From assembly GCA_031280115.1 (NCBI GenBank), contig JAITHF010000056.1, forward strand, positions 1-5,005: 5,005 nt of DNA, in the 5' to 3' direction. A program made the position numbers and the translations under genes. The notes beneath the pieces were generated by a model. That model searched no databases, was not told where the DNA came from, and worked only from the letters and a program-made list of their open reading frames with translations. This document shows positions 389 to 4,899 of this stretch, in pieces (position 1 is the stretch's first letter; each line of letters begins with the position of its first letter). Origin of the DNA: Spirochaetaceae bacterium (GTDB lineage: Bacteria; Spirochaetota; Spirochaetia; Treponematales; Breznakiellaceae).

Positions 389-426
389 TAAAAATATCCT
401 GCGCGGTGTATATAATATGATACAGA

Positions 427-529: not shown

Positions 530-545
530 TGGCACGGCTATTGCT
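530..545 (+). promoter_or_regulatory. Sigma-54 (RpoN) -24/-12 promoter of the sigma-factor gene
   Basis: TGGCACG (530-536), GCTA (537-540) and TTGCT (541-545) match the sigma-54 consensus YTGGCACGRNNNTTGCW at every fixed position except the leading Y, which is A at 529. The -24 GG (531-532) and -12 GC (543-544) are separated by the required 10 bases. The predicted transcription start is near 556, giving a leader of about 30 bases that still contains the Shine-Dalgarno. Sigma-54 promoters need an enhancer-binding activator with ATPase activity, so the gene is inferred to be silent until such an activator is switched on. No activator site can be assigned with confidence. Confidence 0.85.
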
Positions 546-576
546 TTAATAAAAAAAGAAAAGGACACGCTCCCGT

Positions 577-581
577 GGAGG
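577..581 (+). promoter_or_regulatory. Shine-Dalgarno of the sigma gene
   Basis: GGAGG ends four bases before the ATG at 586. The spacing is slightly tight but the match is strong, and it fixes this ATG as the start. It lies inside the short leader predicted from the sigma-54 promoter. Confidence 0.8.
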
Positions 582-585
582 ACTT

Positions 586-1437
586 ATGCGTAAAACAAAG
601 ACCTATTCTGATGAAGGCCAAGACGCTTTGCAAACCTATCTTGATGAGATAAAACATATTCCCCTGCTCAATGCCGGGGAAGAAGCAGCGTTGTCAAAAA
701 GGATTAAGGCAGGGGACAAAGCCGCGAAAGAACAGCTTTTTAAGGCCAATTCGCGGCTGGTTATCAAAATAGCCCGAGCCTATGCCGCCTCCGGAACCGC
801 GCTCCTTCCCGATATTATTCAGGAAGGCAATATCGGCCTTATGCGGGCAGTAGAAAAATATGACCATACCAAAAATGCCCGTTTCTCAACCTACGCCGGC
901 TTATGGATACGCCAGTATATAAGCCGGTTTCTGGCAAGCCAGCAGCGGGGCATCCACCTGCCCCACCGGAAAGAAGAGTGCCTGCGGAAGGTGCGGAAAA
1001 TAGAGCAGGAACTCAGCCAGACCCTTATGCGGGAGCCCTCGGCGGAGGAGGTTGCAAGGGCGCTCAATATGGCCCCGGAGGATATAACCACCCTCCTTAA
1101 CAGAACCAGCGCGTCTTTGTCTTTTGAGACAGAAAGCGCCAATGAAACCCTGCCGGTGATTGAGATGTATGAGGACTATACCTACAACCCTGAAGAGGAG
1201 TTTTTTAAGCGCTTTTCCCAAGACAGCGTGGCCCAGATACTCAACCGGTTAAAGTCCCGGGAAAAATGGGTGCTTATCCATAGGTACCAGATAAACGGCT
1301 GTAAACGCTGTACCTTGCGGAACCTGAGCGACAAGATGCGGGTATCTCCTGAAACGGTGCGGCAGATTGAAAACCGGGCGCTCAAAAAAATGTACCTCTA
1401 TGCCAAAGAGTTCAAAGAAACTCTTAACGCAATCTAG
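586..1437 (+). CDS. Alternative sigma-70-family RNA polymerase sigma factor (group 2-like)
   Basis: This 283-residue cytoplasmic protein would join core RNA polymerase and direct it to a promoter class. Region 1.2 is at about 13-45, region 2 at about 46-120 (core-binding DIIQEGNIGLMRAVEKYD at 76-93, melting and -10 element FSTYAGLWIRQ at 100-110), region 3 at about 121-175, and region 4 at about 214-270 with the helix-turn-helix ending in VRQIENRAL (258-266). Region 1.1 and the long insert of primary sigmas are absent, so it is not the housekeeping factor. By alignment to E. coli sigma-70, F427, Y430, W434 and Q437 are kept (F100, Y103, W107, Q110), but W433 is L106, T440 is S113, and the -35 contact R584 is P255, while R588 is kept as R259. 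This suggests altered promoter preference. A CxxC (C239, C242) sits in region 4. The start has a good Shine-Dalgarno and the gene lies behind a sigma-54 promoter, as rpoS does in Borrelia. I do not assign a name because RpoS identity cannot be shown by eye. Confidence 0.95.
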   Translation: MRKTKTYSDEGQDALQTYLDEIKHIPLLNAGEEAALSKRIKAGDKAAKEQLFKANSRLVIKIARAYAASGTALLPDIIQEGNIGLMRAVEKYDHTKNARFSTYAGLWIRQYISRFLASQQRGIHLPHRKEECLRKVRKIEQELSQTLMREPSAEEVARALNMAPEDITTLLNRTSASLSFETESANETLPVIEMYEDYTYNPEEEFFKRFSQDSVAQILNRLKSREKWVLIHRYQINGCKRCTLRNLSDKMRVSPETVRQIENRALKKMYLYAKEFKETLNAI

Positions 1438-1575: not shown

Positions 1576-4500
1576 TTAGAACAGGGGGATTTGGGGCTGA
1601 GGCAGGGGTTTGCGTTTCTTTTGAGGGCTATCCAGATGGCCGGCAGAGCCGGGAACAAGGGGTTCAAGGTCATTGAAAAAGCGGCTTTTTTTTAGTTTTA
1701 TAGTTTTTCCGGCTGCCCCGCGCGCGCCGTGAAAGGCCCGCCGCTCTTCAGTATAAGAAAGGTATAAGCCGGTTTTAGCCCTGGTCATGGCCACATAGAG
1801 AAGCCGCTTTTCTTCCGCAAGCGCCTCTTCCGAAAGGATGGGGGAATCAAAAGAAAAAGCCCCCGTAAAAGGCAGTATGCCTTCTTCAAGGGCCGGCACA
1901 AACACGTGCTCGAATTCAAGGCCCTTGGAAGCGTGGATGGTGATAATCCGTACCCCTTCGCGGCGCGCCTCAAAGCCGCTCTCCCCGCCGCTGAGGGCAA
2001 AAGCGTCAAGAAACGCCTCAATGTCCGTATACAGCGCCGCCATGTCCAAAAGCCTTTGCGGGCACCCAGGCGGTTCCCCCGCCTTTTTAAGCCGGTCCCA
2101 GACCTCCTGCGCCGCTTCAGACGGAGGCCGCGCCGCGCCGCGCCGCTGATTGTCCCGCAGGGCTTGCAGTATACGCGCCGCCGGCCCGGCCTCCCACCAG
2201 GGCTTTTCGCCGGAAAGCGCGCAGGGAATCCCGTAAACCCCCAGAGCCTTGACAAAGGGCCCCGCCAGCTTCAACGTCCGCAGCAGTATGGCGCAGGAGT
2301 CTAAGCCTGTGAGTTCAAGCCCCGCATCCCGGTCCCGCGCCTGCTCAAAGGGGCGCCGGTCAAGAGCGTAAAAAGAAGTGCCGCCGATAAGGCGGGCGAT
2401 ACGCCGGGCAATGTCCCGGGCTTCGGCGTTTTCGTGGGGATACCCGCAGGAAAAGACCCGCGCCGGCGCGGAGGTTCCCTGCAAGGGCGCGCCTGTAAGC
2501 CTGCAAGCCGCGTCAATGACCGGTCCGGCGCACCGGAAACTCCGGCTTAAATGAAAAGCCGCCGCATCAGGATAATCTTGGACGAACCGGTCCATAAAGC
2601 GCTTGTCTGACCCGCGGAAGCCGTATATGGACTGGTCCGGATCCCCGATGACCCACAGGGATTCCCCGCGGCCCGGGGCTAGAAGCCGGATAAGCGTGTA
2701 CTGGGCGGCGTTAATATCCTGATATTCGTCCACAAAGATAAAGCGGAACCGGTCCTGACAGCGCCGCAGAAGCGCCGTATCCTCCGCCAGCAGCCGGACG
2801 GTCTTGACGATAAGGTCGTCAAGGTCAAGGAGGCGGCCCTGCTGGAGCGCGTCTTGATACCGGCTGTACAGGATTTCCAGACCGTTTTCCGGTTCCGGTA
2901 TGCCCAGCCAACACGCGCACGGCGCGAGGGCTTGGGGGAGGGACCGCTCTCCGGGCATGAGGAGAAAGCGTTTGCGCGTCTCGATATAGCGTCCCAGACT
3001 TTGACGGCCCCTTGGGGCGCTCTTTTCCTCCGGTTCCTTTTTCTCCTCTTTCTCCTCTTTTTTTCTCTTGCTCCCTCTGGCAATAGTCCTAAGGAGGCGG
3101 TCCCGCTGGTCGTCTCCCAGTATGGTGAACCCCCTGATCTGTTCCTGTTCCCGCAGGATAGCAGCGCACAGGGAATGGAACGTGGAGGCAGTGCCTCCGG
3201 CAAGCGTTTTTACGTTGCGCTGTATCCGCCCGCCCAGTTCCGCGGCGGCCTTGACCGTGAAACTCAAAGCCAGTATACAGGCGGGGTCAACGCCCTGCTG
3301 GAGGAGCAGCGCAATCCGCGCCGCTAACGTGGCGGTTTTCCCGGTCCCCGGGCCGGCAGTGATACAAGCGCGTTTTCCGTCGTAACTTATGGCGCGCCCC
3401 TGTTCTGGATCCGGTGTAAAGGCCGGTACCGGCTCTTGCCTTGCTTCCGCCCCTTCGGGGTCTTTTATAACGGGGGTTATAGAAGTTAGAGTTATAATAG
3501 AAGAAAGGTCTTTTTCTGATTTTTCTGATTTTTCTGAAAGGTCTTTTTTTATAAGCGCAGAATCCGTGAAAATAGAAAGCTCGCCCTGGGCTTTGTCATT
3601 TTTCAGAGGTTCGGCGGCGCGGATAATCCCGTATTCCCCATCATAGCCCGGGGTAATGGCCACTTTTCCCTCCCGCATCCGGCCTATGGACGCGGCAAGC
3701 AGCTCGCCTGACACCTTCGGGGCGCGGGCCTGCTCAAGCGCGTCAAGCGGCGCCTCCATAAGCAGGGAAAGCTCTGAAGATCCGGCAATAAGCGCGGTAT
3801 ATGCGGCATCGACTTTCTTGGACGCGGCGCCGGCCCCCAAAATCTCGGCCAACAGCTCCTTGAGCGGGATGAGCGAAGCGTAGGGGCGCCGGTTTCCGCC
3901 GGAGTTCTCCGGCGTATACGGCGCGTTCTCGTCTACGGGCCGGTTAGAAAGCGCCAGCACTCGGGTCATCACGCCTTGGGTTAGGGGCTTGCGGCACACC
4001 GGGCAGACCCCTTTTACCTCGCGGGTTTCCTCCGGCGTGAGGCATACCCCGCAGGCGCGGTGGCCGTCATAATGATACTTGCCCTCTTGGGGAAAAAACT
4101 CCACCGTGCCGGCAAGCCGCGCGGGCCCGCCGCGGCAGCGGAGGTCAAGGGCCGCGGCCAGCGCTGGAAGGGACAGAGGCGCGTCAAGGTCGAATATGGT
4201 GGCTTCCCGCCCAAGTTTTTCAGGCGAGTGGGCGTCAGAGTTGGAAATAATGGCGAACCGGTCAAGGGATGAGAGCGCCCAGTTCATAGGCGGGTTGGAG
4301 GAAAGGCCGGTTTCCACCGCGAGGATGCGCGGCGCCATGTCCCCATAACATTCTTCTATAGAATCAAAGCCGGATTTGGCGCCGAGCGCGGAGAACCAGG
4401 GAGTCCAGATATGCGCTGGAATGAGGAGGGATCTTTCGTCAGCGTCAAGGAGCATGGCCAAGAGGTCCCGTGAATCAAGCCCCAGTACGGGCCTCCCGTC

Positions 4501-4899
4501 GGATTCTATCGAGCCTACCCGCTCAAGTTTCCGCTGGAACGCCCCGGCGGCGGTAAAATCAGGCAGTATCACCAGGTGGTGGACCTTGCGGGTCTTCTCT
4601 CCCTTTTTATAAATCGTGCTTATCTCGCCGGTAAGGGCGAAGCGCGGAACCGCGCCATGATCTTCGGGCGCAGGAAAGCCGGCGGTTCTCGCGGCGCCGC
4701 GCAGGGTGTACAGCCCGGTTTCGGCATCCTCAAGCTGGTTCCGCAGTTCTCTAAGCCACACCGGATGGGTGCAGTCGCCGGTTCCCACAAGGCCGAGCCC
4801 CTTGATCCGCGCCCAGTATTCCAGAACCGGCGGGGTGAGGGACGCGCTGGTAGCTCGGGAATAGGGCGAATGGATATGTAAGTCCGCAATGATACGCAT
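1576..4899 (-). CDS. EndoQ-like PHP nuclease fused to a UvrD/PcrA-type SF1A DNA helicase
   Basis: This 1107-residue fusion probably nicks DNA at deaminated or abasic bases and unwinds from the nick. Residues 1-430 match the EndoQ/TIGR00375 layout in full. PHP metal-site motifs are DLHIHS (6-11), GTGDCTHP (39-46), GEIS (91-94), HH (107-108), PAHIWTPW (161-168), and NSDAHSP (220-226). A C4 zinc ribbon has C283, C286, C299 and C302, and a helical segment ends in PGYDGEYG (417-424). After a polar linker (431-495) comes a complete helicase: Q500, Walker A GPGTGKT (516-522), Ia around 543-555, Ib TFHSLC (573-578), II VDEYQD (723-728), III IGDPDQSIYGFRG (751-763), IV SRSFRC (785-790), V TIHASKGLEFEHVFV (987-1001), and VI LLYVAMTRAK (1033-1042). 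No key residue is missing. A K/E-rich insert lies at 611-628 in the 1B region. The tail ends in QIPLF, a QxxLF clamp-type motif. EndoQ is known from archaea and some bacilli and cuts 5' of deaminated bases; activity of this fusion is inference. ATG 4899 is the only sensible start because DLHIHS follows at once, but there is no Shine-Dalgarno. It converges on the sigma gene. Confidence 0.93.
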   Translation of the reverse strand: MRIIADLHIHSPYSRATSASLTPPVLEYWARIKGLGLVGTGDCTHPVWLRELRNQLEDAETGLYTLRGAARTAGFPAPEDHGAVPRFALTGEISTIYKKGEKTRKVHHLVILPDFTAAGAFQRKLERVGSIESDGRPVLGLDSRDLLAMLLDADERSLLIPAHIWTPWFSALGAKSGFDSIEECYGDMAPRILAVETGLSSNPPMNWALSSLDRFAIISNSDAHSPEKLGREATIFDLDAPLSLPALAAALDLRCRGGPARLAGTVEFFPQEGKYHYDGHRACGVCLTPEETREVKGVCPVCRKPLTQGVMTRVLALSNRPVDENAPYTPENSGGNRRPYASLIPLKELLAEILGAGAASKKVDAAYTALIAGSSELSLLMEAPLDALEQARAPKVSGELLAASIGRMREGKVAITPGYDGEYGIIRAAEPLKNDKAQGELSIFTDSALIKKDLSEKSEKSEKDLSSIITLTSITPVIKDPEGAEARQEPVPAFTPDPEQGRAISYDGKRACITAGPGTGKTATLAARIALLLQQGVDPACILALSFTVKAAAELGGRIQRNVKTLAGGTASTFHSLCAAILREQEQIRGFTILGDDQRDRLLRTIARGSKRKKEEKEEKKEPEEKSAPRGRQSLGRYIETRKRFLLMPGERSLPQALAPCACWLGIPEPENGLEILYSRYQDALQQGRLLDLDDLIVKTVRLLAEDTALLRRCQDRFRFIFVDEYQDINAAQYTLIRLLAPGRGESLWVIGDPDQSIYGFRGSDKRFMDRFVQDYPDAAAFHLSRSFRCAGPVIDAACRLTGAPLQGTSAPARVFSCGYPHENAEARDIARRIARLIGGTSFYALDRRPFEQARDRDAGLELTGLDSCAILLRTLKLAGPFVKALGVYGIPCALSGEKPWWEAGPAARILQALRDNQRRGAARPPSEAAQEVWDRLKKAGEPPGCPQRLLDMAALYTDIEAFLDAFALSGGESGFEARREGVRIITIHASKGLEFEHVFVPALEEGILPFTGAFSFDSPILSEEALAEEKRLLYVAMTRAKTGLYLSYTEERRAFHGARGAAGKTIKLKKSRFFNDLEPLVPGSAGHLDSPQKKRKPLPQPQIPLF
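3503..3543 (-). repeat. 9-bp tandem repeats in the interdomain linker
   Basis: On the plus strand TTTTCTGAT occurs at 3512-3520 and 3521-3529, with TTTTCTGAA at 3530-3538, flanked by two copies of GAAAGGTCTTTTT 33 bp apart (starting 3503 and 3536). In the protein these encode the SEK repeats and the two KDLS blocks at about residues 452-466. The unit is in frame, so gain or loss of a copy only changes linker length between the nuclease and helicase halves. Confidence 0.8.

Follow-up and report, generated by a model that had tools for sequence, protein, structure and literature searches.

Sequence evidence that the Borrelia RpoN-RpoS cascade is likely inherited from spirochaete ancestors, which probably had a second sigma factor under RpoN control

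The window analysed here is the whole of a 5,005-base contig, from an assembly of 1.84 Mb that is 62% complete. It holds a sigma-54-type promoter followed by the gene for an alternative sigma factor, which we call sigma1:

407..424, + strand: predicted enhancer (UAS) E1, a palindrome TGTAT-N8-ATACA, its function proposed from the sequence
530..545, + strand: sigma-54 -24/-12 promoter TGGCACG-GCTA-TTGCT, an exact match with GG-N10-GC spacing
556, + strand: predicted transcription start, placed from the position of the -12 GC
577..582, + strand: Shine-Dalgarno sequence GGAGGA
586..1437, + strand: sigma1 gene, a 283-aa sigma-70-family factor by its Pfam regions, and by tree and profiles a Borrelia RpoS orthologue
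1345..1362, + strand: region 4.2 signature S-P-E-T-V-R, at E. coli sigma70 positions 583-588

The sequence-only reading of this stretch had described an exact -24/-12 box with GG-N10-GC spacing ahead of a well-placed Shine-Dalgarno sequence and start codon, and each of these elements was confirmed. When both strands of the window were scanned, TGGCACG-N4-TTGCT had a single exact match, and matches with up to three mismatches occurred at the chance rate (5 found versus 4.53 expected). The start codon, the ATG at 586, follows the final C of the -12 element at a distance of 42 bp, and the place of this element predicts a transcription start near 556. The suggestion that the host is a spirochaete other than Borrelia also held, since close relatives are MAGs named Treponema sp. 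or Spirochaetaceae, and also Leadbettera azotonutricia (53% identity). Elsewhere in the window, the minus strand at 1576-4899 encodes a 1,107-aa protein. Its residues 94-426, in the N-terminal part, resemble TIGR00375 (142.7 bits, below the cut-off of 326.6), and this part is joined to a UvrD-type helicase. Several tandem TTTCTTGACTACAAGAAAAC-like units of about 20-22 bases were seen by eye at the contig end (1-170).

Box conservation was scored in 87 sigma1 upstream regions, comprising the window and sets of 29, 17 and 40 orthologue loci. These rows cover 31 of the 42 sampled family groups of the class Spirochaetia and include five Treponemataceae-type and five Borreliaceae loci; G046 was left out because its contig end cuts the gene. 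The 40 loci (35 sigma1 and five Borreliaceae RpoS) were picked for family spread before their upstream DNA was inspected, and the promoter matrix was built from the general sigma-54 consensus. Within the 200 bp or less that were scanned, a box of at least 12 bits was present in 83 of 87 upstreams versus 2 of 435 dinucleotide shuffles, a control that ignores the kinship of the rows. The GG-N10-GC spacing was retained in 84 of 87. Retention of the -24/-12 elements upstream of orthologues had been put forward as a check on the promoter, and these counts bear it out. Four upstreams fall short of 12 bits: L220, at 11.9 bits, and the Treponemataceae-type L100, L101 and L108. L101 has a 12.4-bit site at 264 bp. 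GG-N10-GC is absent at L101, L107 and L108, the last two having TTAGC instead of TGGC.

Control promoters had no box: the maximum was 9.2 bits at 11 loci of a third sigma-70 gene and 9.5 bits at seven rpoD loci. A looser box pattern showed no enrichment across the genome (15 matches versus 26 for the reversed control), so the case for the box rests on its position and its conservation. The abundance of such loose patterns is what would speak for a chance box, with sigma1 read from a sigma-70 promoter instead. Set against retention in 83 of 87 upstreams and 2 of 435 shuffles, we regard that explanation as extremely improbable. Sigma1 is not universal in the class. A match at E <1e-50 was found in 75 of 148 genomes, and 7 of the 34 other genomes of the same family have no match below this value, including G014 (94% complete) and G033 (99%).

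The sigma1 protein contains the Pfam domains for sigma-70 regions 1.2, 2, 3 and 4. Among the 25 NCBIfam matches listed, it exceeds the cut-off only for the broad sigma70-ECF superfamily, and the best of these matches by score is TIGR02394, proteobacterial RpoS, at 209 bits versus a cut-off of 378.7. Proteobacterial RpoS resembles sigma1 in being a sigma-70-family protein with regions 1.2 to 4, but E. coli RpoS lies outside the sigma1 clade and the nlpD-adjacent sigma of the source genome is another gene. The latter is the third sigma-70 gene (L033, contig 31), which by eye directly follows an nlpD-like gene, as in E. coli nlpD-rpoS; it belongs to a different clade from sigma1, and its relatives are the 11 box-free control loci described above.

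In a tree of 199 rows, sigma1, Borreliaceae RpoS and the Treponemataceae-type rows were separated from sigma2 (described below), RpoD, the third sigma and E. coli RpoS with a support of 99. The Borreliaceae rows form family group f22, whose G172 sequence matches the cluster RpoS [Borreliella bavariensis] at 97% and a Borrelia recurrentis cluster at 92%. More careful trees were built on subsets of 57 and 53 rows, the smaller one without L106 and the Treponemataceae-type rows because long branches came together. The branch that puts sigma1 and Borreliaceae RpoS on one side obtained 100/99 and 100/97, respectively. In the 53-row tree, grouping Borreliaceae RpoS with sigma2 was rejected (p-AU 0.011), as was grouping it with E. 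coli RpoS (p-AU 0.004). An E. coli-type RpoS identity for sigma1 was discarded on the latter value, on the TIGR02394 score below cut-off and on the position of E. coli RpoS outside the clade.

Profile scores gave a corresponding result. Borreliaceae RpoS proteins scored 265.7-270.5 bits with a sigma1 profile built without Borreliaceae versus 191.9-198.4 bits with the sigma2 profile, a preference of about 70 bits; E. coli RpoS had no preference (254.9 versus 259.2 bits for sigma1 and sigma2). The claim that this sigma factor has altered recognition residues proved real. In most sigma1 proteins region 4.2 is S-[P/A]-E-T-V-R (S583 in 77/77, P584 in 62/77 and T586 in 73/77), and in Borreliaceae RpoS it is S-S-E-T-V-R (5/5), versus T-R-E-R in RpoD (7/7), the third sigma (12/12) and E. 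coli RpoS, and T-K-E-R in sigma2. These results make sigma1 and Borrelia RpoS orthologues, which takes the comparison with Borrelia beyond analogy.

The genes surrounding sigma1 were tabulated for 17 of 20 stretches; the others were L272, whose sigma gene is without these neighbours, and L278 and L279, where the sigma gene was not recovered. A divergent polysaccharide deacetylase follows the sigma gene in 15 of the 17. Next after the deacetylase comes tsaD, which we take to be COG0533, in 13. In 7 stretches flgJ stands immediately before the sigma gene. The two Borreliaceae stretches show the complete set, in the order flgJ-rpoS-deacetylase-tsaD that is common to other families. The flagellar, deacetylase and tsaD neighbours are absent at the copy in the window and at four named MAG copies (L042-L045), which suggests that the sigma1 gene was relocated here.

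The Borreliaceae RpoS branch is long, at about 2 changes per site, and the tree leaves its position inside or beside the sigma1 rows unsettled. A branch of this length would be compatible with Borrelia RpoS and sigma1 having been recruited to RpoN independently. Convergence of this kind would nevertheless have to account for a common, supported side of the tree, a shared region 4.2 signature, the neighbouring genes of the relatives and the box itself, and we consider it very unlikely.

The source genome encodes RpoN (PF04552 at 7.4e-53; RpoN box ARRTVAKYR) and three strong enhancer-binding proteins, so that the genome search proposed by the sequence-only reading found both the sigma factor and candidate activators. 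Of the 148 genomes of the class, 147 have rpoN, one copy having eight stops. This near-universal presence, the conserved box and the box-free third-sigma and rpoD controls support the RpoN-to-sigma wiring.

The source genome has an orthologue of the Borreliaceae activator Rrp2, L034. It comprises receiver, AAA+ and HTH domains, and its full-length identity to the Borreliaceae protein is 54-56%. Directly upstream of the Rrp2-type gene, here as in Borreliaceae, lies a kinase-like gene, recognised by its similarity to the Borreliaceae gene (33.5-35% identical) and its H-box. By these similarities a Hk2-Rrp2-like activator pair is present in the source genome. In Borreliaceae, each of the four genomes searched has a single enhancer-binding protein (E <1e-30), which the literature identifies as Rrp2 (PMC12655853, PMC4014564). 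Two genomes of that family were unusual in their rpoN: in G074 the gene has eight stop codons, and in G178 it was not found, while rrp2 and a boxed rpoS remain. A published report describes two Borrelia species as being without sigma-54 (PMC3162934).

A box scan of the source genome revealed a second sigma-70 gene with a sigma-54 box, which encodes a protein of 294 aa on contig 245 and which we call sigma2. Its orthologous upstreams (30 + 21 + 40 = 91, the 40 again picked for family spread before upstream DNA was inspected) had a box of at least 12 bits in 84 of 91 cases versus 4 of 455 shuffles, which ignore row kinship, and GG-N10-GC was retained in 88. L070, with a box beyond the 200-bp scan, was counted as a miss. 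Five extra upstreams outside the 91 (L295-L299) all had the box, at 344 bp in L298. The RpoN box, ARRTVAKYR in the source genome, has changed to AVRTVNKYR in one Treponemataceae-type genus (L280-L282; G036, G039, G185). Two genomes of this genus have TTAGC for TGGC at both sigma promoters, and the third keeps TGGC at sigma2 (L107, L108, L123, L124, L295).

In the source genome, the only one covered for these sites, further genes have a candidate box in front of them: hsp20, the gene of a LytTR response regulator and that of a small unknown protein. The LytTR gene (L061, contig 270) starts 54 bp after the first base of its candidate box.

Sigma-54 enhancers sit roughly 100-200 bp upstream of the promoter. 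An alignment of five close sigma1 upstreams first brought out an 18-bp palindrome, TGTAT-N8-ATACA (E1). The window copy is TGTATATAATATGATACA, the only one in the window with at least 9 of 10 positions, and its centre lies 116 bp upstream of the -24 GG. Of the 87 sigma1 upstreams, 50 have E1 with at most one mismatch (9 or 10 of 10 positions), versus 7 of 435 shuffles, which ignore row kinship; in the 82 rows outside the discovery set the count is 46. With other spacers the count over the 87 dropped to between 3 and 11, and with the reversed motif to 6. At sigma1 the median distance from the centre to the -24 GG was 106 bp. The remaining 37 upstreams score 8 of 10 or lower, including all five from Borreliaceae. 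E1 was found in 5 of 91 sigma2 upstreams versus 8 of 455 shuffles, and in none of 11 third-sigma or seven rpoD upstreams.

When dyads were searched for without a preset motif, E1 was recovered, and other dyads appeared at sigma2, which we read as TGTGTCA-N3-TGACACA (E2). At least 11 of its 14 positions matched in 73 of 91 sigma2 upstreams versus 2 of 455 shuffles, again a control blind to row kinship, and in 0 of 87 sigma1 upstreams. With spacers of 2 and 4 the counts fell to 0 and 1 of 91, and the reversed motif was found once in 91. Re-derived from 45 rows, E2 was recovered in 33 of 46 held-out rows. Its centre lies at a median of 136 bp before the GG, with looser placement than E1. It scores 10 of 14 or lower in 18 of the 91, and reaches 11 of 14 in three of the five extra upstreams. 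The hsp20 gene of the source genome (L051/L314, contig 91) has an 11-of-14 copy 116 bp before its candidate box, and the LytTR gene a weak E2-type palindrome (9/14).

Both E1 and E2 are thus palindromes at enhancer distance that are conserved together with a promoter, and we predict that they are the enhancers of the sigma1 and sigma2 promoters, respectively. No palindrome stands out upstream of hk2-rrp2 or of the second activator that would pair an activator with a site. In a test for autoregulation, E1 did not occur at 9/10 in the stretches upstream of hk2-rrp2 or around the other activators. For E2, apart from sigma2 and hsp20, the test yielded no more than isolated matches at 11 of 14 positions, all close to a single type of activator (L256/L310, L259).

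Alternatively, unrelated regulators, such as a metabolite-responsive or Fur-type repressor, might use the palindromes as operators, next to a box that is read by RpoN with an activator working from solution, as Rrp2 does in Borrelia. The missing palindrome beside the activator genes examined would fit this explanation, as would Borreliaceae, which are without E1 although rpoS there is reported to be sigma-54 dependent (PMC1976401). Unrelated operators would, however, hardly be expected to take the form of two distinct palindromes at enhancer distance, each confined to one boxed sigma gene, with E2 placed once more 116 bp before the hsp20 box of the source genome. We therefore judge this explanation possible but rather unlikely, and prefer to regard E1 and E2 as predicted enhancers.

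The Hk2/Rrp2-RpoN-RpoS pathway of Borrelia burgdorferi is itself already known, and the arrangement described here is alike in its orthologous sigma factor, in the sigma-54 box before the gene, in the orthologous Rrp2-type activator with a kinase-like neighbour and, for the relatives, in the genes around the sigma gene. In published work on B. burgdorferi, mapping placed the start of the rpoS transcript at the box, and deleting or lacking rpoN removed this transcript; changing the -24 GG to TT abolished activation in an E. coli reporter, and activation by Rrp2 required no enhancer (PMC1976401). BosR is additionally reported to be required in Borrelia (PMC6719511). Borreliaceae differ from their relatives in three respects. 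E1 is absent from all five rpoS upstreams, with scores of 7-8/10 that are within chance, while the box is kept in 5/5; sigma2 is absent from all seven genomes, which have rpoD and RpoS only; and there is the single activator noted above. The absence of E1 matches the enhancer-independent Rrp2 activation described in published work (PMC1976401).

The reverse condition was seen in one treponeme genome of 1.14 Mb (G044), about the size of that of T. pallidum. It has no close sigma1, the best match (9.4e-36) lying in a 621-aa frame that was taken as rpoD. Sigma2 is represented by two matching pieces of one frame, and its upstream has the box but no clear palindrome (9/14).

We consider it quite probable that these elements constitute a spirochaete form of the Borrelia RpoN-RpoS switch, in which RpoN is the hub for two sigma outputs, each with its own gate, and from which Borreliaceae lost sigma2 and the sigma1 palindrome. 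A Rrp2-type activator would be phosphorylated and probably bound at the sigma1 palindrome. This AAA+ activator, likely of the conserved Hk2-Rrp2 pair and likely acting through the palindrome 116 bp upstream, would remodel the RpoN holoenzyme at the sigma1 box, and sigma1 is predicted to be transcribed solely upon such remodelling. Once made, sigma1, whose -35-reading helix has lost two arginines, may guide RNA polymerase to a promoter set of its own in which the -35 element differs. A second activator would play the same role for sigma2 and hsp20 through the E2 palindrome. By parsimony, Borreliaceae would have kept sigma1 and lost both sigma2 and the sigma1 palindrome. The RpoN-to-sigma cascade of the sequence-only reading is thus supported; what that reading had not seen is its extent over 31 family groups, the second sigma gene and one predicted enhancer per gene.

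The conserved box, the orthology of sigma1, the shared neighbours and the Hk2-Rrp2 pair make the Borrelia cascade look inherited. The Rrp2-RpoN-RpoS cascade likely came to Borrelia from spirochaete ancestors, and these ancestors probably wired a second sigma factor, since lost from Borrelia, to RpoN control. With less confidence, we lean towards a more specific history. The ancestor of the Spirochaetia would have possessed an RpoN switchboard, in which sigma1 and sigma2 each had their own palindrome and activator, and in which sigma2 would share its predicted enhancer with the small heat-shock protein gene hsp20. Pathogens would then have kept one arm each, sigma1 in Borreliaceae and, on the thin evidence of one genome, sigma2 in the G044 treponeme, both palindrome-free, and the enhancer-independence of Rrp2 would be a derived loss.

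A 2025 cross-phylum survey of sigma-54 regulons, as far as its text was accessible, associates COG0568 sigma genes with sigma-54 promoters generally and reports COG0533 as enriched in Spirochaetia (PMC12316311). This enrichment, if it concerns tsaD, fits the order sigma1-deacetylase-tsaD in the relatives. The same portion of the survey makes no mention of Borrelia, RpoS orthologues, a second sigma gene or two palindromes. Among titles and abstract openings, with subscription papers outside our reach, we found no report of RpoS orthologues or RpoN-to-sigma wiring in non-Borrelia spirochaetes, and none of class-wide RpoS orthology, a second sigma arm or two palindromes.

In abstracts, the Borrelia RpoN-RpoS cascade is presented as a device for tick-mammal adaptation. 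If it was inherited, harmless spirochaetes would give access to the ancestral inputs and targets of the cascade, and the ability of Rrp2 to act without an enhancer would become a testable evolutionary loss. The two palindromes offer cheap, concrete tests of how activators and sigma factors are paired in a class whose regulation is little known.
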